DNA from: a virus
IMG/VR virus record: IMGVR_UViG_3300031857_001172
Coordinates: 1 to 26,568 of that record
Reading direction: 5' to 3' (one strand)
DNA: 26,568 nucleotides
The notes under the pieces were generated by a model that did not search any database, had not been told where the DNA came from, and worked only from the letters and a program-made list of their open reading frames with translations. A program made the translations under genes and the position numbers. This document shows, in pieces, positions 1,812-25,396 of this stretch. Within the stretch, counting starts at the first letter, position 1, and each line of letters opens with the position of its first letter.

Positions 1812-1813
1812 AG

Positions 1814-2767: not shown

Positions 2768-2777
2768 TTCGTATCCT

Positions 2778-3977
2778 TTAGTTTACAAAAACGACTGCTT
2801 CTAGCATGCCTTCGCCGTCATCATCTTTATTAGCTAATGCACGACCGATAGTATTAAACGATGTTAATTCTTCCTTAGAACCAGCACGTGCTTTGCCGTT
2901 GCCTGCGCTAACTAATCGTTGACCTTTTTTAACTTTTCCTACTACTAATACATGTACACGTCCGGCTAGTGCAACTGCTGGGTGTGTATCATCATCTCCG
3001 GCAGTACTATTCATTAAGTAGGCAGCACTATTACTGATAACACCAAAGACTTCTTCGCTTAAGTCATCTTTAACTGAAGTGATTTCTTTCTCACCACCAA
3101 TTTCTACAACTGTGCCTACTGGGTACACAGCATCTGCTTCATAGCGTTCAGCCAAGTCAGCGTATGTTGCTTGAATACGTGCGCCACTTGCTAATGTCCA
3201 AACGTTAGCAATTGTACCACCACCACCGATATAACCGGTAATTAGATTGCTTGGATATAAGTTACCAGTGTAACCTGCGGCATTATTAAGATATAACGCA
3301 ACGTTACTGTTACCGTATGTACCTGCAGGATTGAATGGACTACCATTACCATACATATAGTTGTCTGATTTTATACCATATGTAGCACTTGAAAATGCAA
3401 TATTTCCCTGACCTAAAACTAAACCATTTCCACTAGTATTACCACTTATAGTCCATATACCTGTTAAAGTACCTGCTGTCGTTGCGGCACCAGTAGTAAT
3501 TGTTTGAGTTCGTACTGTTGTTAAATTCGCGGTTGTAATATTAGCTTGGAGTGCAACTAAATTTGCGGCAATGTTAGCATAATTAACATCTATTGTGTTA
3601 GCTGTTATTCCACTAGTAACGGCAATATTATTTGCATCAATGTCACCAGTAACAGTTACGTTTCCTAAGGTAGTATCACCTGCACTTGAAGTTGTAGTTA
3701 ATGTTACCCAATTACTAGCAGTAGTAGTATTGTCTGCTGGACATATACGCAAAGTGCTATCATTTGTATTATACCATAGTTGCCCCCTTATTGGGTTAGC
3801 TGGTACAGTATCTTTTGCAAAGTTTTCTAACATTCTAACTAGATTAGTATCTAGTGTTTGTCCGTAACTTGCATAATTTCTTCCGGGTAGACCTAAAGAA
3901 GTTGCTGTTGTATTGATAGTACCGTCCTGTATTGTTGCTAGAACGTTACCGTCACTTCGTATAATTGTGTATGCCAT
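2778..3977 (-). CDS. Tail-fibre-like protein with C-terminal chaperone/autoprotease-like domain (399 residues)
   Basis: This is probably a trimeric tail or baseplate fibre. Residues 1-80 form a phage-type N-terminus (IIRSDGN, DGTINT, LGLPGRNY, LVRMLENFA, PIRGQLWYN) that I recall from fibre-type proteins of T4-like marine phages. Residues about 95-185 are short Asn/Thr/Ile repeats (GDIDANNIAVTSG, TANTIDVNYANIAANL), as expected for a repetitive beta shaft. Residues 185-265 are Gly/Asn-rich. Residues 268-399 read YADLAERYEADAVYPVGTVV, then EVFGVISNSAAYL, VALAGRVHVLVVGKV and GRALA. This is the layout of the C-terminal domain on many phage fibres that aids folding and, in some families, cleaves itself off. 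I do not identify a catalytic residue. GGAGT lies nine bases before the ATG, and a late-promoter-like octamer lies 24 bases before it, so this gene probably begins the fibre transcript. Confidence 0.85.
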   Translation of the reverse strand: MAYTIIRSDGNVLATIQDGTINTTATSLGLPGRNYASYGQTLDTNLVRMLENFAKDTVPANPIRGQLWYNTNDSTLRICPADNTTTASNWVTLTTTSSAGDTTLGNVTVTGDIDANNIAVTSGITANTIDVNYANIAANLVALQANITTANLTTVRTQTITTGAATTAGTLTGIWTISGNTSGNGLVLGQGNIAFSSATYGIKSDNYMYGNGSPFNPAGTYGNSNVALYLNNAAGYTGNLYPSNLITGYIGGGGTIANVWTLASGARIQATYADLAERYEADAVYPVGTVVEIGGEKEITSVKDDLSEEVFGVISNSAAYLMNSTAGDDDTHPAVALAGRVHVLVVGKVKKGQRLVSAGNGKARAGSKEELTSFNTIGRALANKDDDGEGMLEAVVFVN

Positions 3978-4001
3978 TTAGTTATTACTCCGCTATTTTA
4001 T

Positions 4002-4009
4002 TATTTATC
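4002..4009 (-). promoter_or_regulatory. T4-late-promoter-like octamer (GATAAATA) before the fibre genes
   Basis: GATAAATA lies in the 32-base gap, 24 bases before the ATG of the 399-residue fibre gene. It matches T4 TATAAATA at seven of eight positions. The same octamer at similar spacing precedes gp6. The start of transcription would fall between the octamer and the ribosome-binding site. Confidence 0.6.
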
Positions 4010-4630
4010 TTAAACCGTAACCAGATTTGTCAGGCTCTGAATACGCACTGTATAATCTATCTGAATCTGACGATTCAAACTCTTTTGAACCGGGTGAAAA
4101 ATCACATGGGTCAATAATTTAGTTAATTCGTTTCCGGAAGTATCTGTTCCGTTATAAGATAATAGTCCCAATTCGTCAAACACAAATTGACTTTCTGTTT
4201 GTGTCCCATTATCAAATGCTAATTGTCCGGGAGGCTCGCCGTAATCCAATAAACACTGAACAATAATATCTGTATAGACTTTACCAGAGGTGTGATTTAT
4301 AGACATTTTATTTCTAATAGGATTGTTATTCAAAATGTTAGTATCATCAACTACTTTAGCGTAAGTTTGATTATATAGTGCGGCATTTTGACCTGTAGTA
4401 TTAGGTGGTAGATATGTGATAATACCAGTCTCGTCTACGCTTGCACCCCCATTTCCAAAAGCCATTTTATAGATAGTTCCTACCCCTCGATTGCTGAGTG
4501 CTTGGGCAATTGCTATACTCATGTTTTCATAATGGATAGCATTGCATCCGTCAAAAAAGACTTCATGGTTGTTAGGATCATAAATTTTTAAGAATCCTTG
4601 GATTGTTATCGGAATAGTAACTTCTGACAT
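4010..4630 (-). CDS. Virion structural protein in the T4 gene 8 position (206 residues)
   Basis: Function is inferred from position between the giant baseplate-like gene and the fibre genes, where T4 has baseplate wedge genes 8 and 9; I see no convincing gp8 sequence match, and the protein is shorter than T4 gp8 (334 residues). It begins with a strand (TIPITIQGFLKIYDPNNHEV), then CNAIHYENMSIAIAQALSN, followed by IYKMAFGNGGASVDETG and ITYLPPNTTGQNAALYNQTY. The second half has NKMSINHTSGKVYTDIIVQC and the C-terminal THVIFHPVQKSLNRQIQIDY. No membrane segment or catalytic motif is visible. Its ATG overlaps the stop of the 50-residue gene by one base (TAATG). GAGG nine bases upstream lies inside that mini-gene, which suggests coupled translation. 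The LKIYDPN motif at residues 14-20 recurs in the mini-protein. Confidence 0.8.
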   Translation of the reverse strand: MSEVTIPITIQGFLKIYDPNNHEVFFDGCNAIHYENMSIAIAQALSNRGVGTIYKMAFGNGGASVDETGIITYLPPNTTGQNAALYNQTYAKVVDDTNILNNNPIRNKMSINHTSGKVYTDIIVQCLLDYGEPPGQLAFDNGTQTESQFVFDELGLLSYNGTDTSGNELTKLLTHVIFHPVQKSLNRQIQIDYTVRIQSLTNLVTV

Positions 4631-4802: not shown

Positions 4803-7800
4803 TTAATTTCTGCTTTGCAAGAATTTTGCATATGTGGTATCGCTAATTTGTAGCGGGTCACCATAAGTTACGATATTTTCACTGTTCCATGTAGAATTAT
4901 ATCCTGCTTCTGACAATTTTCTTGCATTATTAATGCCGTAACCAATAGCATATTGTGAGTGGGTTCTTGCTGAACTTGTACCCTGAATTCCCCTAGTCAA
5001 TCCAGTAATAGTATTGTTTACTGTATCAATATAATCAAATTTGATTCTTTCTCCTTCGATTTCTACTATATTACCCACAGTCAACGTGATCCTGACTAAA
5101 TCCCCTGCTGTTACTCCGCCAGTAAACAATACTGTAGGTTTACCGTCTAGTAAAATAATACCATAATTAGTAGAATCAATATTTTGACCAACAGTTACAT
5201 TATATACCAATACTTCTTTAATTTCGTTAATATCACATTGAACACGTGCATATGTGTTCAACCCGACAGTCACGACATTAACTGAGGTCGTAAATGTTTC
5301 CACTAAGTTAGATACATTGTAAAAATGCATAGTATCATCATTTAGTTCAAATTCTTGTGTTAGCCAAGAACCATCTTGTGGATTAGCTCTATATATTGAT
5401 GCCTCACTATATTTGTTTATACTATAATTGAAACTCATAGAGTTAGGACTTGCACCAGTAACCATTGATGTTACAAGTAACAAATCAGTAGTATCTAGGT
5501 TAGCAAATATTGACAATTTATTGTCTACTGAGGTAGTTATTGCTGAAGATGCTACAGTTTGTGAGATATCGACTTCATAAGTTCCTATGCCACCAACACC
5601 TGATATCATTCCCACAATATATGTATTAGGTGAGATACTAGAGCCAAATATTTCTTGACCTATATTTATTAGTCCAGATGCTATTGCAGTAACAGTTAAT
5701 GTTGTTCCAGATATACTTCCTGTAAAACTAGCACTTGTGCTAAATCTTAAGTGCTGTGGATTTAAACGTTGACCATTGATAGTGAACCATGTTCTAGAAC
5801 CATCTGTATATGTCATATCAGGTAATATAGGAGGTTCCATATGACCCGGGGTAGCCGGAGTAGGTATTTGAATTGTAGAACTATCTAGCCATGCATACCC
5901 GCCACCTGTGTATCCACCAAAGTCCGGACCTACTACAGGTGTAGTTAATCCAATATCAGTATACAAGTTATAAAGTGTGGCTGAGATTTTATCTACATAA
6001 TAAGTCATGTTGTTTATACCGCTTGTTCCAGATACATCATCAATTCTAATTATATCTGTATCAACGAATCCCGGATCACTTGTAAACGTAACTTCCATTG
6101 GAGTTTTACTATGGTCTACATAGCTAATAGCAGTTACATTGATACCAGTACCACCTGTATAATCTGCTGTTGTTAAGAATTGACGCTCTGTATCATAGAA
6201 CGTAGTAATTGCAATAACATCAGTTGATGCTGGTGTAGCAGTAATTTGTAAGTAATTAGTACCGCTTACACTAGCAAATGTATATTCAGCACCAGTCAAA
6301 TTAGGAGGAATTAATCTTTGTCCATTAACTTCAACAATAGAATTGTCAATGTTATCTCCTGTTAATGTTGTTAAAGAGTCATCCAATGCAAATCCATTTA
6401 CAGGAACAATATCTGAACCCAAGAATACCTGAGTTTCAGGAATTGAATATCCATATTGTGTCAAATTATAGTCTGTGCGTGAATTACCTACAATAGAGAA
6501 CGATACATAATCAGTGTTAGGATCAAGTGTAGTATTCAAAAATAATAACTTCATAAAGTTAGTATAAGTGTAGGAAATTATATAATCTACATTGTATTCT
6601 AATTTGTTTAGTGTGCCGCCGGCAACAGAAACGTATACTAATGGATCATTTACTATTTCTTCGTATTCAATATCAAAGATAAAGCAAGACCATCCAGTAT
6701 CTTCATCTACCCTGATTGGGGTATATTTACTATTGCTTCTTATTAACTCTTTACCATTACCAACTTCATACATTTCAATCATAATTGATTTTCCTGCAGG
6801 TAGTGATTGATTAATTGTAATGATTTGATTATACCAATCTATTGAATAGGTATATGTGAATGTGCCAGTAGTTGTATTTTCATATATTCTATAGCTGTCA
6901 TTAGTTACATCATCTATTATAAACACTGACATCCTTGTTGGGTTAACTACTACGTTATCAAAATTTATTTCTAAATTCAAATTAGGTTTAGTAACAGTAG
7001 AGACCATATTAAACCCGGTATGTTTATACCATATAGAACCATCGTTACCTAAATTCCAATATGCACCAGGTGCAGTATTGACATACATTGACAATGTGTC
7101 TGTAACTACGCCTGCTACCAATTCTTCTGGTCCGTACCCATACAAGAAGTCATTACCCTGTACTACATAGTACGGATCATCAACTTGAAGATTTGATAAA
7201 TCTACCCAATTAATACCGTTATTACTTCTTAGAATAACATTCTCTTCACCCACTGCGTAGAAATAACCACCACTATAATATACAGAATTTAGATTTCTAG
7301 TAGGCACAGAACCACCAGTAGCTTGAGTCCAAGTGATCCCATTACTTGAGTATATGATTAGTGCAATATCTGTACTTGAAGATCCAATCTTATCTCCCAC
7401 AGCAACAAACAATGACCCACCACGTGCTACTGAGTTAAGATTAGCAGTTACTGCTGGACCAGAGATTGTACCCTGTACCCAATTATTTGTGTTGTTGCTA
7501 TACCAAACGGTAGCTTCATCACCTACAACTGCTACCAATGTACTAGATGCTGCCACTCCGTTAAATCCAACTGTATCTAACGTTGGTTGTAAATCCCAAA
7601 CTGTAGTTCCGTTAATACTAGTAACTACCCTAGATACTTCTGATATCGTAGGAGAACTTGTTCCTTGGCCGGATATAACTTGATATCCTAACCCGACACC
7701 TATATATCCAGTAAATGCCGGTATATCAATATATGCAATATCATTTATAGTGTTATTTAACCTAGAAGCAAATGCGTAAACTTGAGTCCAAGCTAAGGCA

Positions 7801-10800
7801 TCGGTACTTCTTAAGATAGTATTACCGGCACTAAAATAAATTCCATTTACATATAATACAGAATTCATCGGGACATTAGGAGCAGATATCTCAGTAGAAT
7901 CAAAACCACCTGCGCCAAATTCGATTGAATCGAATGCAGTAAATTGACCTAGAGTCACCCATAACACAGCATCAAAACTAACTAAGATAGGCATCAATTC
8001 ATTGGTACTAGTAATAACATAAACATCATCATCTGAATTATATGTTATATCAGTAATTCCTAATGACACGCTAGCAATCTTATAACTATTCCATGTACCT
8101 GTTTCATTGTACACTAGCACTAAAGAATGGTCAGTGGCATCACAAGCGGCAACTATTGTAGTTCCATTATACACGACTGCTTTTACGTTTACACCAGTTG
8201 GATAGAATGGTTCGTCACGCACAATGAAATCTAACGGTAATTCATCTTCTGGTGCAAAAGCATTACCATAATAAACATTATTTGGATATGATATTCCCTT
8301 GACGAGTTGTTGTGCATCTTTGCCGGGCATGCCTACAGTAGGTTCATAATATGCTTCAATTCTATCTAACGCATTTAAGGCAGAATCAGAACTTAATAAT
8401 GGATACCAGTGTGTGGGTGTAAACTCAGTATCGTTGTTTGCCTCAATACATTGCCATATTACGCCTGCATATGATACCACAGAACTTATATCATATCCGT
8501 ATGCATAACTACTGCCAATTGGCTCTGGTAAGTAAGCATAATCTTCCCCGGATCCGTCCCATATAAATGATGAGTATGATACTGGTACTGTTAATAGTGC
8601 ATCAGCATATATTGCAAGTTCATTATCACTTGTTGGTTTTACAAAATATTGTCCAAACTCTCCCACAGCAATACCATTGACGTTAGCAGAGAATATACTA
8701 CCACCATTAACAGTTAAACCAACAACAATCTTAGCATCATTGATAATATCAACACCACCCAACAATGAGCCAGCTATTACTATTACATCGCCCACAGAAT
8801 AAATGTATCCTGAATTTACTATTTTAATATAGTATAAATTATCAATTATCTTGGGGTTGAATCTAGGTCTGTATATTTTTATTATTGCACCGCCGCTAGT
8901 ATTGAATCCGCTAGCGGTTATTGTAGCAGTTATTGTCGTTGAAGCTACAGATTGAGTTGTACTAACTGTATATGTACCTATTCCACCAAGACTGCCGCTA
9001 ATTTGAGATACAATATATGTACCTGCAGTTACTCCAGAACCTGAAATAACTTGATTATTTTTTAATGTGCCTGCTGTAACACCAGTAACAGTAAGTGTCG
9101 TTGCATTAATAGATGCAGTAACTATTCCACTGCTAGTATTAACCGTGTATGTTCCTGTACCGCCCGATGCTGACAAGAATGCACTGATTACTGTTCCCGA
9201 AGGTACATTAATACCGTATACACTATCACCAACTACCAATGATGAACCATCTTCAATAGCAGTTACTGTCATAGTTGTTCCAGTTATACTTGCTGTAAAG
9301 TTTTTACCAGTATCATCATATGTGTATCCAGAATGTACTCTATAAAAATACATATTTCCACCATAGACTTGACCTGGTAGTAGTCCCAATGTATATGTTA
9401 CATTTACTATTGCTTGACCGTTGACATCTGATAGAGTATTAATAGGTAATACAGCACCTTGCAGACTTGATAAGTTTGCATCAATAGCAGTACCCGCAAT
9501 TGATATTGTACTAATTTCTCCACCAGCACCAATAGATTCTACAGTAATTAAACAATCATTTGGTATATATCCAGTTAAGAATAATAAAAGAGTTGTATCT
9601 GTTTCTGTTGCAGGATTACTTATGATAATGTTAGTATTAATATCTATACTCACCACTACAGTATCGTATGGTATACCATAACCAGTAATATAGTCACCAA
9701 CAGTAATACCAGTAGTACTTGCCATATTGATAATAGTAGCATCCTTGACTATTGAACCTGCTAATTGTGCAGTAGAAGGATAACCAAATAATGGACTTAG
9801 TGATGAGATAACATTTGGTATGATTCTAATAACATCTCCGACAACATAATTAGCACCCGGGTTTATAACATCAGCATCATACGTTCCACCTAGTAATACA
9901 TTGTATACTCTAAACGATGCATTTGTACCTGAACCACCAGAATAGTATGCTGATGTAATTACACTAGTTGGTTGTGCAACCTGCAATTTTACCGGGCTAC
10001 TAGCGTCATTACCAATACTTAAGTATGGACTTGAATAATATTCTCCAGCTACCCATGGCTTAATTCTTGCTCTATAACTAGTTCTATCAAATTTTAGTGT
10101 CGTAGCCATTGTACGAACTTTAGAACTGTTCATTGTAGGTATGGCTCTTGCTCTGATACTTACGGTATGTGTATAGTCATTTGACATTAGTGTTTCATTA
10201 GTAAATTGAACACGATTAGTGCCATATATACTATCATCATATGTTTTATAGAATGAAACTAATGATGCATTACCAGTAAATGCAAACAACAATGCACTAA
10301 TTTGAGTACTATTAATATAATAGTATCCATCTGGAATCATATTAACTCCGTTAGTTGAAATACCCTGTGAGTAAACCAATTGACCAGTTACAAAGTTAGT
10401 TGATAACAATTGTATAGTGTTATCAACAAAGTTTATTCTAAAAAATTCTGAAGTTTCTTCATAACTAGAAGAAAAAACGATTTCAGGAATAACTACATAT
10501 CCTTCACCAGAATCAATAATATCAACACCTATGACTTTATCGTCGGACATCAAAGCTACTAGTTTAGCTTCTCTCTTAGGTGCAGGATATATTGTTGTGT
10601 CTACGTATGCAGTAACAGTAGGAATGTCAGCATACTGACTTCCTGAATCTAGTACTACTATGCCAGGCAAATCCATTATGATAGGAATTCCTGCATAATG
10701 GTCTACTGGCACAGTGTTATTGACACCGCGACTTATTCCACTTAATATTTTGTGTACTCTATCAACGACAGTATAACCAATTATTTCATCTTCTATTTGT

Positions 10801-13800
10801 ACAGTTCCTGCGACTGGTATCCCCTCAGCACTGTCTATGTAAATTTCTATATCAACTGATGACATGAATTTAGCTACATTGCATATTGGTGTATTTGGTA
10901 TATTTTTAATCAGAGTTCCATAACTAGCAAACCACTGGGAGTACTCAGCAGAAGACCATATTGGACTATCTTCTGGGAATTCGTCAGGATAACTTGCGTA
11001 CACCGGTGTAGTATCATCAGGTGGGCTAGACAATCCATATAGTAGTTGAGGTGAAACAAATCTACCTATTTCTGAATTATAGAATGCCGGTAAATCGTAA
11101 TCTGTAAAATCACCCTCAAACACATCAGTCTTATTATACTGTAGGTAAAACTCTTTAACAACTACGTGGTAAGGTTTAAATTCATTTATATAGCCTTCTA
11201 ATAAACTTTGGTTATCACGTTGAAACTTTTGATTAGTAGTTAACTCACGTACTGAATAATTAACATCTGCAAAACTAGTTTTAGTTAGCCATGGCAAATA
11301 GTTTTGACTTTCAATATTTTCACTTTGAATATATTCAAATAACAATATCAAACTCTTATTTCTATGTTCAAACAATGGACCTACATATATCTGTTCATTC
11401 AATGCACGAACAATGTATCTAGTTTCTGTTGAAGGGAAAAAATCAAATGATTCACCACTGAATGAATCTCCAAAGCCTGTTTTGTATTTCTGATAATTCC
11501 ATAAAGTTGGTAAGAATTTTAATGTACCGTTTTGTACTCCAATTCGTACCCAAGTACTATCAGTGTAAATATAAACTTCACGATTACCTTGACTATTACT
11601 TGCAACACCTACTATTAATCCTTCAGTTGCTTCTGTAAGAGTTAGTAAATCAGTATAGATAGCTACATCCAATGCGGCTCTAGTACTATCACTATATCCT
11701 TCTGCCCACCAATAAATCTTTTCCCAATAATTAATAGTATTGAATGTATCACCTTGTGCGACCAAGAATGTTGTATTACCAAATTCAAGTATAGGGTATA
11801 ATGCTATGACTGAGTTGGCATATTCTAAATAATTTCTTAGTGCTTCTAATCTGTTAATAAACAAACTTTGTCTTGGTCTTACACTTACACCTATTTGTAA
11901 TAATTTAGGTAGTGTTGGATCAGGTACTGTTGCACCGGTCTCGTCAGTACCTGATATACTGTCTAATAGTCTATCATATAATCCAACTGGATCATTGTAT
12001 CCTTTATCACGATTTGGGAATCCTGATAAGAAGTCTGATGGATATTCACTACGAATTAATTCAAATTCTAAATGTCCTGAAGGGCCGTTTGCACTGTTAC
12101 CATATCCCAAATGTAAATTAGTAGAAACATCATTTACATATTCTTGTGCATTATAAAATGCATATGTATTTTGTTTTAACGGAGCAAAAAAAGCAATACC
12201 AGAATTCTTTGGATCAGCAATATATCTTTCTAAGATTGAATCTGATAATGTTTTACCTTGTAAACTGAATAGTCTATTTGTATTTCGCACCCAGAAATAA
12301 TATTTAGGAATCAAATTATTATTGCTATCAGTAACTAGTGTAACAGAATATGTTCCTATATCATATGGGACTCCTGGTCCTGTATAGAATGCAGGAGATA
12401 CATCACTTTCTATCCATGAATAAACTGTGACTGTACTACCTGGGAATACTGTTCCCCAATACTTACTATTGTAAACTACATCATCTTGGTGATAGTTCAT
12501 AAATCTTGTTGTAGTAGTATTGAACCATAATTTACCTAGATGGTCTTTGGTCCAAACAATATTACCAACACGTAATTGAGGACCGTTATATCCAGCTGGG
12601 TCAGTAGAACTAATATAATCTAAATGTTCTGCTACAGTACCTAATAGTTTACCTTGTAGCGGGTCTACATAATCTAAACCGATTAAGTTTTCATTGTTAG
12701 TATTATTATACAATGATACTTTTTGAATCTTTTCAACATCAACAATTGGATCAGATTCACGGTATGAATGCCAGTTTGGTATTCCAGATTCATTAGTGAA
12801 TACTAGTACTTTACCCTTTGTAGTTAGTGGTTTGAAATTAGGTGTTCCTACCATAACTACATTGTCATTAAATGCCAGTGCAGTACCGTACATAGGTTGT
12901 GCGCCATAATCCATTGCAATGTCATTGCATGATTGTGCGTATATGTATTTTCCAATATTGAGTAAACTCTCGTCATATGATTGTATATAATCATACATGT
13001 ATACACTACCTGCATTACTACTAACATCTTGGAAAGTTGTTAGATTGTTATCAAATACTGTATCATTTTTAATGTTGTTATCATTACTAAAATCAAACGT
13101 AGTAGAAATATATCTGTCATTAGCAGGTGCGCTAACAACAAATGAGTTCTCATCATTAAATTTTACAGCATAACCAAATTGAGTTCTAGTTTGTAGATGA
13201 GGATCTTGAATAACTTGAGATTTGATATAGTCAGTAAAACCCAACTCGTATAAATCATTACCATTGAATACACCAATGTTCAACTTATTATTGATTGGTC
13301 CTAAATTTATATCACGCAATCTAATTACCAAACGACCATCTTGTGTAGAATACGCAAAGGTGTTAGTTATGTTAAAACTGTTAATAGCATTTGCAACTGT
13401 GGCTGCATTGCCTGCAGGTATAGTCACTCTATAACCATTGATTAGAATATAGAACGGACTTGTTACGTTAGTTGCAATTAAACCTGTCATTATTCCAAAT
13501 CGTTTTCCACCGTTCGTAAAACGATATACTGCACCTTCTTTTAACGAATCGGTTACATCGAACGGGCTACCTATAATTACTTCGCTACCAAAAGTGTTGC
13601 AATCAACACTATATCCAAATAATTCACCTGGACGTAATTCATTTAAATTATCATAACCATATATTTGTTGAGTCAATACAAATTGTGCGCTACTAATAGT
13701 AACTATATCACCAGCATACATACCAATTGTACCAATGATTACAAAATTCAATATTACAACATATTTGTTAGTAGCTAACAATACACCATTGATATAAATT

Positions 13801-16800
13801 CTAGTTTGATTTGTTGGGTTGAACGCTAGAATAATAATATAAAACTCATCAGGTCTTTGGTCATATTGAACTTCAATATTCTCTACTAACCTGTCATACA
13901 TATATGCAATACCAGTATTAGGTAAACTCAAGCTGTAATCTGTATACGGGGCACCTGCAAATAATTTACTACCGTCATAATTAGTAGCTAAACTATAACT
14001 AAACTGGTCACCAGCGGCTACCATAGGAGGAGAAATTGACCCAACAAGACTAAAGTTAACACTAGCTATGTAAACATAAGACCCGGATGGTGCTGAGTAT
14101 TGAATTGGTTCTATAACATAGAATGTTGTTTTATTAGTGGTAGAGTTATATGTTGCTGTAATCACAGTATAAACTGCTTCTTCACTAAATGTAATCTTAT
14201 AAACTGTTTGTCCTACGTTAACTGTCGCATCTGCCATTTCTACAGTATAGAATGTAGTAGTGTTTGATCCAGGATCATATGCCTCGCTAGCGATAGTATA
14301 CAAACGAGTACTTGCTGGACCGTTATTAGTAAACGTAACTTTATCTCCATTGGCCAAATCACTTCTTTGGTCACCGGTACATACAAAATAATAATCTCCA
14401 GCACTTACTGTACTTGAAATAGTAGAACCAATTGAAGTATATGATGTTACAAAGTTTACACGTTGTCCTTCAAGTAATGTTGGGTTTGGTGACAAACAAT
14501 TTCCAGAACATACAAAATATGTCTTATCTAATAATGTTGCGGCACCAAGCACAAGTCCAGAACTTGTATACGTTAGTGTTTTATCACGTTGGAATGCAAG
14601 TGCAGTATTATCATTCTTAGCACCTAAATACAGTATATTACTGTCACCGGAAATATCCATTGCATCGCCAACTCTACCACCAAAAATACTAATAACTTGT
14701 TCAAGTATAATACTGTTAATATTAGTTGCCGGAGGAATTCTATAAACAAAAATTTGACTTAGTATGTCATCAGGACTTGATACAATAATCAAATCATTAC
14801 TACGTGTAATGCTTGTACCAAAATTACCACCTTCATCAATCGTGTTTCTCAAGTAGAAGAAGCCGCTTGAACTTATTGCATAGTGATACAACTTGCCTTC
14901 GCCTAAGTCTGACACAAAGTACCCTACATTAGGAATATGTGCAACTGCTGTTCCAAAAGTAGTGTTACTACCTATATGTGATATTTGAGTGCCTGGCGTA
15001 GGGTAATTATTTGTCTTTTCATACACTGTCCAAGTGCCATTAGTATTTGCGTCTACCCAAACTTTATTAACTGAATATTCAGCATTTAATAATGGCAGAG
15101 CATCAATGTCTCTTGCCGTTATGACACGCTGACTTTGCAATAGATAGCTTAAACCTTTTCCAGAAATAGAAGTTGTGCTAGGTGTTAATGTAGTTGAAAC
15201 AACTAATGAAGTTAAGTTGATTACTTCATTGATAGTATGGAAGCCATTAATAAGTGGGTCAAAGTTTAAAATACCTATTGATTGATTTTTCAATAACCCA
15301 TGTGGTTTATTAAACACAACGGTAACTGTGTCATTTAAGTTGTTAATAACGTTAACTACTAATGCACCGGTCGATACAGGTGTATATATTTGCCAAGTGT
15401 TATCTTTTTCTGCTACCCAAATATATTCGTTTTTATATATAGATCCTATAGAAGAATCAGCAAGAGTTCCGATAGAGTATGCAATCTCGGTAACATCATC
15501 AATGTTAACATATCCTGCACTTGGTAATTTTTCTTGGTATGTATAGTCTAGTGTAGGAAGAATATTTGTTGATGCAATAGGTCTTCCATAATTCTTAATC
15601 TTATACAACGGTACTGATTGTTCAGCACCGATAACAGGCTCATCTTGCACAATACTAATTATGCTTGGATTACCGGTCAACTCAGCTTCATTCAATGTTA
15701 CTTCAATAAAGTTTTGGTTTAATAGTCCACCAAATTCGCCAGCCTTGATTGCCCAATTTTCATGCACTTCATAATTCAGTGAATTTTGTTGTAAGTTTAT
15801 ACCTTGTAATTTTGTTACACTATCAACTGTTCCTTTAACAGGAATCATATTCTTATATAAATTAACTTGTGTAGCATCAGAGAAATTAGCATCTGCAAAA
15901 TAAGTACGAGGTCTAAATCCAATTAATGATGCACTCAACAAATCATTATCATTTTCTAAATTAGGATTGGTTGTGTCATAGAACATAGTAGCTTCATATG
16001 CTCTAGTACTAGGATTAGGTAACAATCCTTTTTGTATATCGTCATAGCTTGTCTTAGACCACTGCGTATAATCAAATGTGGCACTCGGCAATATTACAAT
16101 ATTTTCTGCAATATAATAATCGTTCTTAAATCTGACAATCGTACCTTTAGTATATTTTACATTCTCTTGCCATAATTCAATATTATCTTGGTTTATAATA
16201 TAACCACTAGCATTAACTAATCCGTTCCATTCAGCAGATTTGGAACCCTTAACATATATACGTTGTTGACGAAGTCCTGTAATCAAATTGTATATTACAT
16301 CGTTAAACACAGTGACGTTATCAAAAACAACTACATGCTCCATAGAACTTAAATTAGCCCTAAAGAAAGACATACTATCACCCTCGTTTAAAGACTTGAT
16401 GTTGAAATCTACACCGTTTCGGTTTATAAACAAGTCACTTGTTGCAATTGGTAACAAATTTTGATTTAATACAAAATTTTCTCTCTGTATAGTAAGTGGT
16501 TGAACTATGTTATTTTCTTTACTAACAAAAATATTTCTAGCATTAGGATTAACGTTGATGGAACTACCATAGTCCCATCCAGTTTTAACCCAATACAACA
16601 TTTCCAATATCATTTGATCCCAAGTTAATTCTATACCATTTTCAATATCCGTAAACTGTAGACCTTGACTAGTTAAGTATAATCCATGACCTCTTATAAA
16701 TTCACACAATTCAGTAATTGTATTAAACTCATGACCGTATGGTATGAGTATTGTACGTGGATAATAGTTTTTAGGGACTTGTACACTTAACCCATCAATT

Positions 16801-19800
16801 GTAAATGTATCATACAATCCATTAGTGATTGGTATTTGTGCAGTAAAGTATGTTCTATTTTGACTATTACCAAATACTTTATATCCGGTTTGAGTTTTTT
16901 GAACAATTACTGAACTATAAACTATAGTATCGCTAGGTTGATTATCATATAATAATACACTATAACTATCATCTGGTATCAATAAAGAATTGTTTTTACT
17001 ATTAGGTGTGCCTTTTTCTACATAAAAATTAAGTAAGTCTTTATCGCTAAAGCCAGCTAACCTGTAAGACAATCTAACATCTAAATTTTTAATCAAAGTT
17101 GTGATACTAGTAGAACCATCAATACCAAATTGATATAGATAATCTACTAACCAATTGATGTAACTATGTACCGAGGTACCAGCACCATAAACAACCAAAT
17201 TACTTATAGAATCTCTATAACGATTGTTATACAAGTATTGATTAAATTCTGTGTTAAACTTGTACTTGTCTACATCTATGCCTAAAGCAAAAAACTTAGC
17301 TGGTTTTAGCAATGCGGCAAGACGCATCAAGTCAAATGGCCATGTGCTACTTCTTAAATAACTAAATTCTGCAGGACCCACATCACCGACAGTCCACGGA
17401 TTATCAAAGTCATTAGAATTATATGCATTCAATAAGAAATCAAAAGGTGATAATAAATTACCATTTGAATCAACAGGGATAATATTTAATAAGTCTGGTC
17501 TTATACGATTTTCGTTGATATAAGGATCACCGTCATTCCAAATATAACCGTTGCTAATGTCTGTCCACATGTACGTGTTTTCGCTAGTATATGGTGCAAT
17601 ACCATATCTACTATCCCACCATGTTGGTTTATCAGTCAAACCTAACATTTCCCAAGGTGCTAATGCTGGATTAGTTGTGTCATAGAACCATAAATAAATT
17701 CCGCGCCAGCTACCCTGTGTTATAACTTTCTTGCTATTCTTGTAAACACTCTTGTTATAGTTAAATGTAAACGGATTTGTAGAACTGAACAAATGTTCTT
17801 TATAATCAATACGATTTTGTCCAATCCAATTTAAAAACTGTGTTGAGTACATGTTTCTAAAATTCTCATAACTTATACCAACATCTCTAAATTCTCCAGG
17901 AACTATCTCATCATAGTTAATAGGTATCTTAGCACTAATTTTTAAGTTATTAAATATTCTTGTTTCAAATTCCAACAAGACACTATCACGGTAATCAGTT
18001 AGAGCTCCATTTTCGTATTTACCATATAACTTATTATAAGAACCATCATGTCCTCTAATAAAATATGTGTCCGGTATGTAAGTACTATCTAATATTACAC
18101 TCGGTATTGTTGCTGGATATAATCCTAATTTGGTAGGAGTGTTTGGTACAAAACTACCATAAGTTTGGTCATATTCTTTAATGACAATAACATCATTGTT
18201 AATCAAGTCTTTAGTAATTGTTAGACTTTTTTCTGTTTCAGAAACTTCATAGTCTACTCCTCTTACTAATTGAGTAGTTGTAATTGCTCTGCCAATTCTT
18301 CTAGTCAAGTATACCAATACACTATAATAATTAGCTTCAGTAAAATTATAAATTCTACTTAGATTAAAAATACTAGTTGAAATATCCGTTTTGAATGTGT
18401 AGGTATTGGTTACTGTTGCATTCTTAGAAGGAAGCATATCACTCCAAAAGAATGGATTGGTATTAATTCTTACCTCAGAAATCTTAGACATTACATCATC
18501 TAAAATATACGCGGAAGTTTGCAATGAAGTATATTCATTGTTCACTAATGTGTTTATCAATAGGTTTTTAAATTTGATATATTCATTTGCATTATAACTT
18601 AGTGCATCAAAGAAATTATTACTGTTGTTACGCAAGAATGCTGATGCATTTACTAATGGCGCACTATTTTGTATAATTCGCATGCCGTATGGCACAACAT
18701 TACCAATATCTCTATAGTTATTAGCACCAAACGCTAAACCTTCAAACCCAGGTGCATTGTTACAAATACTCTTATAATGTCCTCTTATATCACCTGAATT
18801 AATAGTAGTAACTTCTGAATTGAAAGGGTTGTGATCCAAGTTACTTGGTATTTGATAATATCCAGTAATACTGGTTTGGTCGCTATAAAGCATTATTACG
18901 ACCTTAGTACCCATTAATGGTGGTGTAGATAATGTTACTGTAGTCGTAGTATCAGTTGTAATTACAGCAAAAGAAGAATTAGAAATTCTAGCGTTATCTA
19001 CATAAACAACAATTACCGGCCATGGTGTGGTCGTTTGATCCTTAATTGCAACATCTAAAGTGAATTCAGGTGATATAGGAGTTGCATTATATGTTTTTTC
19101 AAATACTTGATACTGGAAACTTTCACCTGGAGCAGTCTCCCAACCTACATTACGTACATAATCGGTTCTAGTAGAATAATCATATACATAACCACTATTA
19201 ACTACTTCAGTGACGGATATCCCGCTTGAATCATAGTTAAATGTTTGTGTATTCAAGCTAACTTCAAATGAGATATCACCTAAATTATTAAATGAACTAT
19301 ATTTGATTGGGAACCCCAATACTATATCGTCAGCTCCTGTGCCAATTGCATATTGAAATAATGTGCAACCTTCAAAATCAGTACTTGGATAAAAATCTCG
19401 GTCTCCAAAACTTATACTGTTGCTGTCAAAAATATCAAACAACGGTGGTTGATTGACACGTTCTTTAAATTGTGCTTGTATCCAGTTAGTACCGTCAAAG
19501 TAAAAACTTTTACCCTGATATACGTAACCTTGTGTTATAACCGTTTGTTCATTATAACTTACATCACCATCATCTGCTTTAGCTAAACTAATAACCGGAG
19601 CAGGTTGAATTAATGTTGGTTGTGAATTACTAAACACGCCCGGATTAGTATCATATTCTAATGTTACCGTGTTTAATGAACTACCCACAGCAACGTAATT
19701 ACCGTTATATAATTCATTGCTATTACCAGAAACTGTATAAGTTACGCCAAGTGCTGGTGGTGTAAGCTGAGTAGGTATATTTAATGTTACTATATAAGGT

Positions 19801-22034
19801 CCTGAACCTGTTTTAGAACTAAAAGTGACTGTACTTGTGACTCCACTTAAAGTGATAAAATTACAAGTCCAAATCTTATTACGTACTTCTACATCTGTAT
19901 CACCGGCAAAGATAATAGTTGCACCATCATACAATACTGAATTAACTCCGTCTGGTTTAAAATTAGGTTGTCCGGCAACTTCGTTAAATGCATCTGTAGC
20001 AGAGAAGTTGATGAAACTTGTATTTGGTTTGGCAACAGTACCTGATTGGTATAATTTTAAATTAGGGTAAAACTCGATGATTGGTCGCTTTGCTCTCTTA
20101 TCTGGGTTACCTAAGGCCTCTGTACTTATGGGACTAACTAAACTTTTTTCAATTACAGTGTTTAGTACATCAACATGAAACCAGCGATTACTGCGACTCC
20201 ATGCATTCTTATTAAAACTATTTCTTGCGATAGTTATGTAATCAGGTGATAATGGATAGAATAATGTTTCTCCCCATGGAAAACTATCAAACGGTTCTCC
20301 ATCAAAAGGTGAGGTGTAAGGTGTACCAAATGGTTCAGGAATATCAAAGTTGTCAACTGGTAATAGTTGTATGCTAGCACCTACGCCCTCTACATAGTAT
20401 TGACCTTGTGCATATATTTCTGGAAAAACATTTCCAGAAAATTGAACTTTTAATCCATTAGTAAATTTAATATCGTTTGGACTAGTATATACTTTCTTAC
20501 CTAATATTTGATTAATATCAATAATATCAGTACTCACACCATCTATCAAACGTATTAAACCAACTTTTTCTGAGTTAGAGCCATCTTGGTAATATAAAGT
20601 ATCTAACGATGCTGTTAAATTAGGTATCAAAATGATATCGCTATAACTGTTCTTTACAAACTTTCTACCAATATACTCTGTACCATAACGAATAGTCAAG
20701 TTTGTGTTGTCAGGTAATACACCTTCTTCTGTTAAACGAATAACATAATTATCTTCATCACCTAAGAAATTAATTTTATAATAGTGTTTGTTGATTTCAG
20801 TAGGTACTGCATCTTCTAATAAACCTTGATCCACTGTTCCCAACATTGTTCCGGTGTCAGTTGTTAGACCAATTACAGTACCATCAGGCTCGTTAGATAT
20901 GCTAAATGTAGTTGAACTATCAATTGTTTTTACATAGTATGTGCCGCCTGCATCAAGTCCGCCAATTGCAACGGTACCCATAGTAATTGTTTCATTCAAA
21001 CTTAAACTAGCAGTAGAATCACATGTTAGTAAGTCAGTACCAGCATTAGTGCTAGAAATTGTAACTGTTACAGTAGAGGTAAGTGTAGGATCATTTATAT
21101 CATATCCTTCACCAAAGAACTTGCTTATATATCCTAGTGTGCCTGGGGCTGTTCCATAAAACAAAAGTGTTTTATTTTGCAAGTCAAAAACATTGTCAAT
21201 AGATTCTATGCTATCTACACGTTGGCCATTAATTTGGTCAAATGACAATGTAGTTGCTATATCTATATCTAAGTTACCAGTATATACAAAGTCATTTTGT
21301 GCATCTGCACTTGGTACAGTAAATGTTATTGTTCCGTTATTTGTTCCGTTATTTTCTACACCGTATACTTCTCTGGTGCTTATATTTGGTCTAGCGTCAC
21401 TTACGCCACTTACGCCAGGTACTGATTGAATATAGAAATTACTAGGTTGGTCTACTACAAACTGATAGGTCCCGCCCCTAATCAATGTTATAATTGGATT
21501 GAGTTGATTTATTACATTTTCACCTGCCACAAATTCATATCCAATAGCTTTAGATGTTACTCCATAAGTCAATGATTTATACAATGTGGTATTGGTAATA
21601 GTCAATGCTTCAGGACCATTGGGCAACCAGTAATATTGGCTATGATTGATTAGTTTATCTAAATCAACAAAGCTATCCCAAGAATAAAATTGATTAGCGA
21701 ACAAATTATTATTGTTATCAGCATATCCACCTTGTAGTTTGATACTGTCTAAGAATCCAGGATATGTTAATAAGTCAACCGCAATCTTGGTATCTTTCTT
21801 TTTAAAAACTACTGTAGGTTCTAATTGATAATCAGTTCTAATTTTAGAAGGTTCTGTAAGATACTTGTCTCCGGAACTAATTCCGTAGCCAAATTTACTA
21901 CCAATATATCCTTGTATTTTTTTGAAATCAGGCTGTTGTACTAGCTGGTCTAGTGTAGCAGATAAAAACTGGTTGTTAGTCCTAGTCTTAAATATATCCG
22001 GTAAGAAATCAATTGTTCTAACTTTTGTTACCAT
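4803..22034 (-). CDS. Giant multi-domain baseplate-like virion protein (5743 residues, T4 gene 7 position)
   Basis: One frame of 5743 codons without a stop; AGGT seven bases before the ATG fixes the start. Gene order (gp25, gp6, this, fibres) puts it where T4 has gp7 (1032 residues), so a peripheral baseplate wedge role is likely but inferred. The N-terminus ([59 protein letters not shown]) and blocks such as PTKLGLYP (about residue 1300), [17 protein letters not shown] (about 1570) and [14 protein letters not shown] (about 3640) resemble, from memory, large structural proteins of marine T4-like phages. Other visible modules: 'GL..G.....NG.Y' strands near 730-800, 2227-2285 and 5305-5365; seven FG-GAP-like repeats at 2360-3083; Asp-box-like repeats at 4610-4960; G-T-Y-x-V modules at 4245-4370 and 5434-5500; a MASTTGI module near 4090-4160; two E.I.Y...RG modules near 3740-3790 and 5650-5710. 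No enzyme active site, signal peptide or membrane segment was recognised. Mass is roughly 0.6 MDa. Confidence 0.9.
5535..5745 (-). repeat. Third copy of the G-T-Y-x-V protein module in the giant gene
   Basis: Encodes [14 protein letters not shown], then [19 protein letters not shown], then [20 protein letters not shown]. It follows the same order as the tandem pair at 8925-9300, about 1100 residues earlier in the protein. Such units are common strand-rich decorations in phage virion proteins. Confidence 0.6.
7140..8220 (-). other. Asp-box/BNR-like repeat domain in the giant protein
   Basis: Encodes about residues 4605-4960. Five short motifs of Asp-box type recur at irregular spacing: SFDAVLW, STDALAW, SNNTNNW, SSNGITW and SNNGINW. 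Each follows a strand such as ILVSFD, TILRSTD, LIIYSSN or VILRSNN and is preceded by hydrophobic strands ([18 protein letters not shown]). This is the pattern of BNR or YCF48-like beta-propellers. Five visible motifs leave the blade number open. Such propellers often bind glycans, but no sialidase arginine triad or acid residue was identified. Confidence 0.6.
8925..9300 (-). repeat. Tandem pair of G-T-Y-x-V protein modules in the giant gene
   Basis: Two adjacent units of about 60 residues. The first has [32 protein letters not shown] and [13 protein letters not shown]. The second has [33 protein letters not shown] and [19 protein letters not shown]. The units line up along their full length and recur once more downstream. 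They are probably small beta domains acting as spacers or surface decorations. Confidence 0.7.
9560..9770 (-). other. MASTTGI module in the giant protein
   Basis: Encodes [23 protein letters not shown] and NIIISNPA, about 70 residues. It matches the segment inserted into the 403-residue fibre protein (1344-1562) in order and spacing, so two genes of the same virion region carry the same mobile protein module. Confidence 0.6.
12785..14960 (-). other. Seven FG-GAP-like repeats forming a probable beta-propeller in the giant protein
   Basis: Encodes about residues 2360-3083. Seven repeats follow the pattern aromatic-G-x-A/S-hydrophobic, a polar turn, a hydrophobic strand ending G/S-A/T/S-P, then V/A-Y-x-F/Y. 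They begin at FGTAVA (2360), FGTSIT (2405), RVGDAMD (about 2455), QFSYSLA (about 2677), LFGYSVD (about 2805), QFGYAVK (about 2953) and MYGTALA (3048). The clearest second halves are LFAGAPYTD with [15 protein letters not shown] with [15 protein letters not shown] with SVYMYDY, and VMVGTPNF with KVLVFTN. Repeats 3 and 4 are separated by about 200 residues of inserted strand-rich modules. Integrin-type FG-GAP repeats usually come in sevens, which fits. No clear DxDxDG calcium loop is seen. Confidence 0.65.
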
Positions 22035-22051: not shown

Positions 22052-25000
22052 TTAACTTGTTGGTTGTAGTTCGCTTGGAGTAAGAGCAGTTATAACTGTA
22101 ATATCAGTTGCTTGTGCCGCACTTACAAAAATCTCATATGGAGCACTATGTATCTCGTACAAATCTCCAAAACTTAATGTATTGTCATTTGGTACTAGGA
22201 CGACTGAACTAACTAAGTCACCTATTTGTGAATGCAGATACGCACTCAATTCACTAAAATAGAATGTATCTCCAAAGTCCCAATTATCAATGCTGAAATA
22301 CGTATTAATTTCTGACAGTACGGTTGTACGTATTTCACTATCGCTTGCTGTGGTAGTGGCAGATTTTATCACCTTGATTGTTGCACGTAATTGCGGCACT
22401 GCCTTATCACCAAACAAAGGTTTAAATCTAGCACTGTTAAGTATGACACTATCTGATAACATTTTATACTCGTTTACTTTACTGTATGCAGTAGTTAAGT
22501 CATTGATACTAGGTCTAGTAGGTTCTTCTAGTGTACCAGTAGTATCACGAATCCAATTAGTGTAGGCAGTATAATAACTTTGACTTAACACATATAAATC
22601 AATAATGTTAGTTGTACCTGGATCAATTCTAGTTGTGTCACCTGAAATATGTTTATACTGGAAGTATAATCCTTGACGACCTGTTTTTACTGTGTATGTT
22701 GTTTGCAATTCTAAATTAACAATATTTGCTGAGGTAGTATCATTAACTGACTTATAGAATTTACCTTCTAAAACTGCATAGTAAACTTGCCCAACAGGAT
22801 ATTCATATTTAATAATTCCAATATCAGCTTGCGTACCGTATGCATATACAATATCAGTTGAAGGGACCATTTCATAACGTGATAACAAATTTGCATCAGT
22901 TACACGTTGGAAGAATACAAAGTTTTGTAGATTTCTAGTGCCAGGTACATATCCAGTCACATCTATGAAGAAGTCCGGATTCTTTAAACTACCCACTGTA
23001 GTTAAATCTGCTGTGCTAACTTCTACACTAAAGTCATCTACATATCCATCTGCCTCTACAGTTTGCCCAATTACACTTAATTTGATATCACGAGGATATG
23101 GAAAATTATAATTAGGTTGTGTATTACATTTTAAAATGCTAATGAAGTCTTGCAATAACTTACCGGTTGCAGGGTCATATATTACTTTGTCCCTGTCAAA
23201 TGTAAATCTGACATCGTACACACTACCAAAATAATATTTTACGCTATGCCATGCTACTAGATATCTATTATATCCTAAACTTTGAAATCTTACAAAATAA
23301 TTATTAGCCGAGTAACTACTAGTTGCCCAACGTTCTTGATTTGCTAATAAACTATTATTATATACTAGTGAAAAATTTTGATTCAAACGAATTTTAGTAA
23401 CACACTCTTGTATTAATTCTGTACCCAATGAATTTGTAAAGCTAGGTATAATGACACTTAATATTGCTCCGTCAGGAATTAAATTTGTTAATGTTACTGG
23501 ACCCAAACCAGTATCTAAGTTGCCGTCACCGCCATTATATCCATCGCCAACAACACTTGATACACTAGTCCAAATAGATTGTAAATCACTTGGTAATGGT
23601 AAACCAGCAACAAGTCTATTGTCTGGTCCAAAGTAATAACCACTCGGTGCAACAAATCCTAATAAAGCACCTTCAGTAACATACTTTACATTACCGGACG
23701 AATATACACCAACTGAGATAGGTAAAGTTGTGTAAAAATATCCCGTTGACTCGCCTGATTGGTTACTGGATTGATTCCAATATACTGCTTCATCGTTTAC
23801 TAGATATCTAGGATAAGCCTGAGTATAGTATTGATATGTTCTTTCACCACCTAATACACTGGGTAAATATTCTGTTAAAAAGTTTACAATATCATTTGTG
23901 GTGCTAGCAGTAAAAATAGTCACACCATCATTGATATCTTCATACAGTCCGCCATCATCTGCAAAATCATTTGTGCTGGAATATTTTGCACTTGGATCTA
24001 ACAAATCAAAATTGCGACTGGTGCCTACACTACTACGATTAATAGCTTTGCTTTTAATAATTGAACTGTATAATGTGAATGGGAAATTATTATAATCTTC
24101 ACCATTAACCATACGATTTTGTGTGTAGTAACGTTGTGGGGCACGTTCTTTAATATCAGCAATTGTCTCACGTGCTTGTGCAGTACTTACCGGAAGTTGT
24201 AAATCAAGCGTCATTGTTACTGTCTCTTGTCTTCCAGTACGACTTAAATAATTTAAAGACAATGTAATACTTTGGAATTCGCTTGGGTCGATTGTATATG
24301 TCAATCCATTACCAGAACGAACATAACTTATAAAAGAACCAACTGGTATTTCGCTGAACACACCATCACCAAATACATATGTTACTTGGTCATTGGTTCT
24401 AGAGTTTACGCTAAAAACTTTTTTGCCACTAGTTAATTTTTGTAAACTTCCATTTTCATAAACACTATCTACTTGTTTCCATCTACTGTATTGTCCAGTA
24501 GTTGAGTTAATTTCATATAACCATGTGTCAGTATTATTAACACCTTGAATATCAATATCTACTATCTGATTACTAATTTGCTCAGGTACATTAAATGAAT
24601 ATGTCTTTAATGCTCCTTGCTTAAAATATAAGAAAAACCCTGTATTAGGACTGCCATAACCCAATTTATCATTTCTATATAATAAATTAAAAACATTTGA
24701 GTTACCAGGAGGTATTTCATACACTGAATCACTATCTACGCTGGTTACGCTAACTGCTTCAAAATTCATTGAATTGCCATCAACAGTAGCTGTAAACGGA
24801 ATTACCGGTACATCGCCAGTTGGTAACAATATGCTATATTCGTCAGTCTTAATATTCAACAATACATTTGTATTTCCGGGTTTTCCGATACGTTGTGTAT
24901 CTATAAGAGCGGCGTTAATGATAGTATTAAACTGTTCTTGCCAATTTGGGTTTGCCGGGTCATTCCATAATACAGTAAGATTACTCAAACTTAAGTTAGT

Positions 25001-25396
25001 TACATCTCGTATTTGTTCTGAAGTGCTAATGGATGTAATCTTTACATACCCCTGGCCAGCAATATTTCTTTTAGGTGTATATCCTACTAGGTTAGCTAAC
25101 TTGATTACGCTGTCCCTACGTTCAGCAGTATCAATAAAATTCTCACGTGCATTCAAATCGCCCCTAAAACTTAGGGCTTGACCCATATATGCGATAACGT
25201 CCATTAAAGCAGAAAATTCACTGCTTTCAATATAGTCATTGAATGTTTCTGGGTAGTATAAGCGAAGGTAATCTACAAATGTCTTACGCAGTGTTTCATA
25301 GTCATAACTCTGAAAATCAGCTTGACTATAGTTTTTGTAGATTGATTTCCAATCATTTACACCAAAAATACTTGATTGTCTTGAACTTGTGGCCAT
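22052..25396 (-). CDS. 6: Baseplate wedge protein gp6-like (1114 residues)
   Basis: T4 gp6 forms the dimeric inner core of the baseplate wedge ring, holding gp7, gp25 and gp53 around the hub. The N-terminus is the conserved gp6 region: RKTFVDYLRLYYPETFNDYI (residues 38-57), SSEFSALMDVIAYMGQ, then ENFIDTAERRDSVIKLANLV and GYTPKR (to 110). The C-terminal part (about 985-1114) has SVILNSARFKPLFGDKAVPQ, IRTTVLSEINTYFSIDNWDF and FSELSAYLHSQIGDLVSSVV, also typical of gp6/gpJ-type wedge proteins. It is much longer than T4 gp6 (660 residues); the extra length lies in a strand-rich middle. It follows gp25 by 60 bases, with a late-promoter-like octamer 21 bases before the ATG and only a weak purine-rich ribosome-binding site (AAGAGA). 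Upstream gp25 supports the assignment strongly. Confidence 0.93.
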   Translation of the reverse strand: MATSSRQSSIFGVNDWKSIYKNYSQADFQSYDYETLRKTFVDYLRLYYPETFNDYIESSEFSALMDVIAYMGQALSFRGDLNARENFIDTAERRDSVIKLANLVGYTPKRNIAGQGYVKITSISTSEQIRDVTNLSLSNLTVLWNDPANPNWQEQFNTIINAALIDTQRIGKPGNTNVLLNIKTDEYSILLPTGDVPVIPFTATVDGNSMNFEAVSVTSVDSDSVYEIPPGNSNVFNLLYRNDKLGYGSPNTGFFLYFKQGALKTYSFNVPEQISNQIVDIDIQGVNNTDTWLYEINSTTGQYSRWKQVDSVYENGSLQKLTSGKKVFSVNSRTNDQVTYVFGDGVFSEIPVGSFISYVRSGNGLTYTIDPSEFQSITLSLNYLSRTGRQETVTMTLDLQLPVSTAQARETIADIKERAPQRYYTQNRMVNGEDYNNFPFTLYSSIIKSKAINRSSVGTSRNFDLLDPSAKYSSTNDFADDGGLYEDINDGVTIFTASTTNDIVNFLTEYLPSVLGGERTYQYYTQAYPRYLVNDEAVYWNQSSNQSGESTGYFYTTLPISVGVYSSGNVKYVTEGALLGFVAPSGYYFGPDNRLVAGLPLPSDLQSIWTSVSSVVGDGYNGGDGNLDTGLGPVTLTNLIPDGAILSVIIPSFTNSLGTELIQECVTKIRLNQNFSLVYNNSLLANQERWATSSYSANNYFVRFQSLGYNRYLVAWHSVKYYFGSVYDVRFTFDRDKVIYDPATGKLLQDFISILKCNTQPNYNFPYPRDIKLSVIGQTVEADGYVDDFSVEVSTADLTTVGSLKNPDFFIDVTGYVPGTRNLQNFVFFQRVTDANLLSRYEMVPSTDIVYAYGTQADIGIIKYEYPVGQVYYAVLEGKFYKSVNDTTSANIVNLELQTTYTVKTGRQGLYFQYKHISGDTTRIDPGTTNIIDLYVLSQSYYTAYTNWIRDTTGTLEEPTRPSINDLTTAYSKVNEYKMLSDSVILNSARFKPLFGDKAVPQLRATIKVIKSATTTASDSEIRTTVLSEINTYFSIDNWDFGDTFYFSELSAYLHSQIGDLVSSVVLVPNDNTLSFGDLYEIHSAPYEIFVSAAQATDITVITALTPSELQPTS

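Follow-up and report, generated by a model that had tools for sequence, protein, structure and literature searches.

T4 gp7, a protein of 1032 aa, forms a trimer with two gp6 chains. In marine T4-like phages, the gene after gp6 can be giant, as the sequence-only reading had stated: it is annotated gp7 in S-SM2 (4156 aa) and P-HM2 (4454 aa), and it encodes 4120 aa in S-SCSM1, 3495 aa in ACG-2014e and, by coordinates, 6171 aa in S-SSM5 (S-SSM5_094); in Melnitz-1 and Cr30 its product has 896 and 767 aa. These marine slot proteins match T4-type gp7 around T4 residues 719-783 and 841-892 (best BLAST E 3e-9; also with iterated profiles), T4 gp7 itself matches phrog_2885 at E 1.3e-4, and sequence comparison makes the cyanophage giants clear homologues of T4 gp7. 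According to PMC7029224, cyanomyophages and pelagimyophages lack T4 gp7, for which VrlC appears to substitute. Contrary to that view, giant gp7, gp8 and VrlC are all present in Synechococcus phage S-SM2 (L126:6547-28001), where the giant carries the T4 gp7 blocks alongside a separate VrlC gene. Among non-cyanophage T4-like phages, gp7, gp10 and gp12 are described in PMC3037559 as so divergent that they fall into up to nine clusters.

The window analysed here is a whole virus record of 26,568 bases (IMGVR_UViG_3300031857_001172), likely a fragment of its genome. Positions 4803-22034 of its minus strand hold one ATG-started frame of 5743 codons without an internal stop, and the encoded protein is 5.56 times as long as T4 gp7, in agreement with the earlier description of a single gene more than five times that length. 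We assign it as a gp7-slot virion protein of the phrog_10938 family. The same 5743-aa frame is present on a second IMG/VR contig (L097, record G001, 50,639 bases), which differs from the window by 15 mismatches in the 18,201 bases compared, 11 of them inside the giant gene and 10 of these 11 synonymous. In a comparison with a more distant relative (L098, 5706 aa) in tiles of up to 500 codons, third codon positions were the most divergent (0.50-0.60) and second positions the least (0.17-0.31) in 12 of 12 tiles, indicating coding selection along the whole gene. A frame broken by misassembly or frameshift, which would have undone the single-gene description, was not found: the second contig carries the same frame, and the slot is a single frame of 5148-6794 aa in all 23 IMG/VR records, this contig included, that carry the downstream phrog_11259 gene and whose interval was examined, a set of long contigs and not a random sample. 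The longest of these frames (6794 aa) was taken from the coordinates of two overlapping regions, and in a 24th record carrying the downstream gene (L016) the slot protein has 3771 aa.

The giant's ATG lies 17 nt past the stop codon of a gp6-type baseplate wedge gene (22052..25396, minus strand, 1114 aa), the product of which matches phrog_10646 (E 4e-258) and phrog_219 (E 6e-30), TIGR02243 below its cutoff (E 5e-9, 35.3 bits, cutoff 155.8) and T4 gp6 directly by BLAST (E 6e-5). Beyond it is a gp25-type baseplate wedge gene (25457..25933, minus strand, 158 aa) that matches phrog_975, phrog_261, phrog_43 and, below the cutoff of 27.2 bits, PF04965 (E 4e-5, 23.7 bits). Downstream of the giant are a 206-aa gene of phrog_11259, a family with no known function (4010..4630, minus strand), found in 24 of the 32 IMG/VR records searched, and a 399-aa gene (2778..3977, minus strand) that matches phrog_14394, phrog_6427, phrog_22593 and phrog_15511, one of which is labelled virion structural protein and three of which are of unknown function. 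For two further genes of the baseplate cluster (403 and 317 aa, window 600-2767), neither PHROGs nor Pfam gave a match at E ≤ 0.001, and the second contig, farther upstream, shows matches to one hub/lysozyme family and to two families of virion structural proteins. The minus-strand order is thus gp25-type, gp6-type, giant, 206-aa phrog_11259 protein and 399-aa protein. The corresponding orders are 6-7-8 in T4, 25-6-7-8 in S-SM2 and W-J-I in P2; this likeness indicates that the giant occupies the gp7/gpI slot. Like T4 gp7, it lies directly after gp6 in the wedge cluster, as the sequence-only reading held; its position is that of gp7, and homology to T4 gp7 is unproven.

The giant belongs to a family that is already catalogued and that has larger members, as judged from sequence. 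Residues 1-1945 match phrog_10938 at E 1.9e-182 and residues 1834-3833 at E 9.7e-92; PHROGs lists this family (profile length 3324) as 'virion structural protein' and files it under head and packaging. In tblastn searches, residues 1-1000 matched 57 phage records and residues 1001-2240 matched 58, none of them from a cyanophage, and in both sets every record had at least 284,544 bases except two (86,102 and 109,507 bases). IMG/VR holds at least 599 relatives of the gp6-type gene and at least 594 of the giant's core, and one of the records whose slot was examined lies on a contig of 263,709 bases. Given these record and contig sizes, the window most likely derives from a jumbo phage. A T4-sized genome type is not supported, and the earlier premise of a genome type with pressure on gene size does not fit, because the relatives are jumbo phages. 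A cultured relative is Escherichia phage Sharanji, whose record names E. coli K12 MG1655 as host. Proteins encoded after a gene annotated as baseplate wedge measure 4449 aa in Atu_ph07 (gp180), 3857 aa in PA5oct (gp355), 3341 aa in GAP32 (gp230), 3326 aa in RaK2 (ORF070), 3340 aa in CBB (gp236) and 3313 aa in XacN1 (ORF325), and the records label these relatives 'virion structural protein', 'structural protein' or 'hypothetical protein'. The giant directly follows a gp6-type or annotated wedge gene in the window and in six of the seven named jumbo phages. The exception is Salicola phage SCTP-2 (giant of 3807 aa), in which the preceding gene (L006:10636-19926) encodes a 3096-aa protein for which BLAST at E 0.01 gave no match to the gp6-type protein of the window; this suggests that gp6 may have been replaced, fused or moved in that phage. 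In Klebsiella phage K64-1 (NC_027399.1 55024-58179), the stretch that matches the giant is annotated as ten hypothetical proteins, whereas AB897757.1 has one; the annotation of the former therefore seems fragmented.

Detection in virions comes from relatives of the window phage. The PA5oct gp355 record bears the note ESI-MS/MS, and the part of PMC5259590 that holds the virion table lists CBB_236 with the values 21 and 7.72, which we read as peptides and percent coverage. In the section of PMC7247149 on phAPEC6, gp245 (381.88 kDa) is reported with 17 unique peptides and 7.6% coverage and adjoins the baseplate wedge protein gp244; its place and mass suggest that it is homologous to the jumbo giants. 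With its family in PHROGs and in the virion proteomes of relatives, the giant is less unexplained than had been thought. Literature searches on the jumbo phage baseplate gp7 as a virion structural protein, and on phage baseplates with FG-GAP or beta-propeller domains, found no paper.

Conserved blocks (residues 1-180, 460-740, 830-2240 and 3060-3690) are broken up by variable inserts, which comprise an FG-GAP propeller, a chitin-binding-type module, a probable second propeller and copies of a strand module. The N-terminal domain (residues 1-165, window 21540..22034; all features of the giant are on the minus strand) was recognized by a profile of about residues 4-164 in 32 of 32 jumbo giants examined, the window and its twin included. 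Profiles also define the block at residues 460-740 (19815..20657), the core at residues 830-2240 (15315..19547) and the block at about residues 3060-3700 (10935..12857). BLAST coverage by the seven named phages is high in parts of residues 1-200, 500-700, 801-2200 and 3101-3600, with 0.33 at residues 1201-1300, and falls to zero at residues 201-400, 2301-3000 and past 3700. Among 23 IMG/VR relatives, not counting the twin, coverage is at least 0.62 in all 100-residue tiles except at residues 701-800, 2501-2700 and 4001-4500, where it is 0.15-0.54. An AF2 model of residues 1050-2240 reached a pLDDT of 83.6 and a pTM of 0.75 with 97 sequences, and that of residues 3060-3700 was weaker (pLDDT 77.3, pTM 0.51, 62 sequences). 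In a viral structure library, the former matched 23 models at probability 1.00 and E ≤ 0.001, that of the Atu_ph07 relative among them, and one further model at probability 0.13; the best VIA-align entry for the latter had Z 5.5 on 56 residues.

Within the core, a beta domain at residues 1206-1289 (18168..18419) resembles, by structure comparison, domains of the P1, phi812 and phiKZ baseplates and tail fibres: it aligned with 7rfv at Z 8.2 (1.9 Å, 64 residues), with 9vzk_T at Z 8.1 (3.0 Å, 78 residues) and with the phiKZ baseplate chain 9xqs_U at Z 6.8 (3.0 Å over 76 residues); for this domain as for the next module, a Z below 8 can reflect a common arrangement. A chitin-binding (CBM5/12)-type module at residues 1950-1996 (16047..16187) rests on a fold match with weak Pfam support. 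It aligned with chain 8fqc_P1 of the Milano baseplate at Z 7.0 (1.3 Å, 45 residues) and with chitin-active enzymes at Z 4.7-5.8; Pfam CBM_5_12 was reached at E ≤ 1 by four of seven relatives (the members of profile A1), with E 0.1 in the window and the best value in PA5oct (E 2.8e-4, 21.3 bits, below the cutoff of 26.2). A possible second module of this type at residues 4512-4544 (8403..8501) is weak in the window (profile E 0.13, Pfam E 0.27) and reaches a profile E of 8e-8 in the relative L099.

The mosaic of propellers and repeated strand modules described from the sequence alone stands for the FG-GAP propeller and the strand modules, and a second propeller is only probable. Seven FG-GAP-type repeats with inserts span residues 2360-3082 (12789..14957; PF14312 E 8e-9, 36 bits, cutoff 23). 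In leave-one-out tests with 500 shuffles per repeat, of which between 406 and 498 could be scored, their scores were reached by 5, 11, 25, 1, 1, 0 and 0 shuffles. For the probable seven-repeat propeller at residues 4617-4947 (7194..8186), which has no Pfam match, the counts were 2, 13, 0, 129, 0, 0 and 0 of 500, so that six of the seven repeats pass and the fourth is unsupported; because the repeats were picked by eye, the test is biased upward. A repeat profile places strand module copies at residues 4245-4311 (9102..9302) and 4305-4370 (8925..9122), and a third, the best stretch of both phrog_38233 and phrog_21413, lies at residues 5436-5501 (5532..5729); the module occurs in the window, L098, L099, L100 and L119 and is missing from the other 15 of the 20 proteins compared. 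An RG module detected by a repeat profile has a first copy at residues 3744-3791 (10662..10805) and a C-terminal copy at residues 5654-5733 (4836..5075). It is also present near the C terminus in L016, Atu_ph07 and PA5oct; SCTP-2, GAP32, XacN1 and the gp7-type proteins compared gave no match to it. The sole NCBIfam match on the giant, to acylphosphatase, had E 0.019 and 15.1 bits against a cutoff of 108 and was taken as chance. Window 7131-7604 (about residues 4811-4968) weakly matches a 'baseplate wedge initiator' protein of cyanophage S-8S55 (OQ504983.1 63326-63766, E 2e-3), and Limnohabitans phage DC31 matches near the same stretch (E 2e-5); these matches hint that modules may be shared between giant slot-7 proteins.

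For descent from gp7, the sequence comparisons are mixed. BLAST of the window giant against six T4-type gp7 proteins gave no match at E ≤ 1. Among six other jumbo giants compared with gp7 in the same way, the best match was that of GAP32 (E 0.017 at T4 residues 285-340), which falls outside the gp7 core and was taken as chance. The N-terminal domain, which to the sequence-only reading had looked like a conserved phage domain, is indeed conserved among the jumbo giants, but it is not recognizable as a T4 gp7 domain: its profile matched none of 13 gp7-type proteins at E ≤ 1e-3, and small-profile hhalign of this domain against the N7 and K7 blocks gave P 0.13 and 0.23. A PDB sequence search returned no match at E ≤ 1 for residues 1-2245 and none at E ≤ 10 for profile A1, and Foldseek against the PDB returned none at E ≤ 0.001 for the models of residues 1050-2240 and 3060-3700. 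T4 gp7 was not among the best 50 of 609 Foldseek matches of the former model or the best 50 of 199 of the latter, nor among the 50 VIA-align entries listed for each, where its absence does not exclude gp7.

The best candidate for a resemblance to T4 and cyanophage gp7 is the KGT block, placed by hhalign profile matching at 15792..15857 (about residues 2060-2081). We compared three T4 gp7 blocks (KGT/K7, T4 residues 719-783; N7, about 640-690; H7, about 841-892) with the giant split into 57 tiles, and the deep profiles were built from 89 gp7-type and 135 jumbo sequences. With deep profiles, the KGT block ranked the tile of residues 2001-2240 first of 57 (score 26.8, uncorrected P 0.0015, probability 16.6%); the tile that overlaps it came second, and the one after that scored 15.1. 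With small profiles, the same tile again came first of 57 (score 22.8). A separate small-profile hhalign comparison of the KGT block gave P 0.011 (probability 3.9%). A profile of residues 1900-2240 also matches cyanophage ACG-2014e at residues 149-224, its gp7 KGT region, at E 0.008. The N7 block was placed at residues 1601-1840 with deep profiles (P 0.0014, probability 17.4%) and at residues 3501-3740 with small ones (P 0.0029), and the H7 block, for which no tile among the 57 was distinct, at residues 3901-4140 (P 0.024, next tile 0.026) and at residues 2001-2240 (P 0.029), respectively. The deep-profile placements of N7 and H7 fall before and after the KGT block, but they are unstable between runs; because N7 equals KGT in nominal P and yet moved, such values can arise by chance here.

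The explanation that we somewhat favour is that the giant is a wedge scaffold in the gp7 position, enlarged by inserted surface-binding modules. It would correspond in position to T4 gp7 within the baseplate genes of a contractile-tailed jumbo phage, built into the baseplate beside gp6, with which contact is presumed, and would hold the wedge together as an old scaffold common to jumbo phages of the Rak2, Atu_ph07, PA5oct and related types. This scaffold part of the account is supported by the gene order, by conservation and by the detection of relatives in virions. Compact beta modules may have been inserted between and after the conserved blocks, thereby lengthening the scaffold in this clade, and the inserts might stick out from the rim of the baseplate, where they could contact glycans on surfaces or serve to dock fibres, as the fold types and variable distribution of the inserts suggest. 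An adhesion or display platform at the rim, as the sequence-only reading proposed, is a possible role. A possible alternative, to which we give appreciably less credence, is that the slot is occupied by a protein of the baseplate periphery or tip that has no relation to gp7, attached by its N-terminal domain and acting as an outer rim, with the true gp7 counterpart elsewhere or lost. The lack of BLAST homology to T4 gp7, the absence of gp7 from the fold-search matches listed and the likeness of the beta domain at residues 1206-1289 to baseplate and tail-fibre domains all agree with a peripheral protein, as does a KGT match no stronger than the unstable N7 match; against it, the KGT block chose the same tile first in both runs, a gp6-type gene followed by this slot recurs in P2, T4, cyanophages and jumbo phages, and a cyanophage giant of the same slot does match T4 gp7.

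Two other explanations concern whether the frame yields one protein. Cleavage of a polyprotein-like precursor, translated as one frame and cut into several baseplate proteins, seems improbable: the modular build would suit it, and the low mass-spectrometry coverage reported for relatives (7.6 and 7.72) does not demonstrate an intact chain, but low coverage also fits a low copy number, and relatives of 3771 to 5743 aa keep the N- and C-terminal modules in a single frame. We regard an assembly chimera or artificially fused genes as very improbable: although metagenome contigs are the only source of the closest forms, a second contig has the same frame and 23 records have one frame of comparable size (5148-6794 aa).

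Under the enlarged-scaffold reading, it is conceivable, if rather speculative, that the slot-7 wedge subunit acts as an evolutionary accordion, a conserved scaffold that takes up exchangeable glycan-binding and propeller cassettes in several phage lineages and so makes the baseplate itself an array for receptor binding, alongside separate tail fibres or in place of them. The baseplate would carry six copies by its symmetry, each chain having a mass of about 0.6 MDa by the rule of thumb of 110 Da per residue. Giant slot-7 genes are common in IMG/VR, to judge from the at least 594 relatives of the core, and if the jumbo giants share descent from gp7, the insertion of surface modules would have made a core wedge subunit several times larger. 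Cultured phages would allow a test of the idea that giant slot-7 proteins are gp7 subunits that have grown and serve as receptor platforms.

The window giant thus stands beside three known systems. It shares with T4 gp7 the place after gp6, but at 5743 aa against 1032 aa it has no BLAST match to that protein at E ≤ 1. The marine cyanophage giants (phrog_2885, phrog_701 and phrog_4406) share with it the slot after gp25-gp6 and the giant size; however, none matches it by BLAST better than E 0.013, and whereas they bear blocks clearly related to T4 gp7, the window giant has at most the KGT block. The jumbo giants of phrog_10938 have their conserved blocks, N-terminal domain and gene order in common with it. 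The window giant exceeds the longest of the seven named members by 1294 aa, and its residues 2301-3000 and all those past 3700 are without BLAST coverage by them, although its C-terminal RG module is detected by profile in Atu_ph07 and PA5oct.
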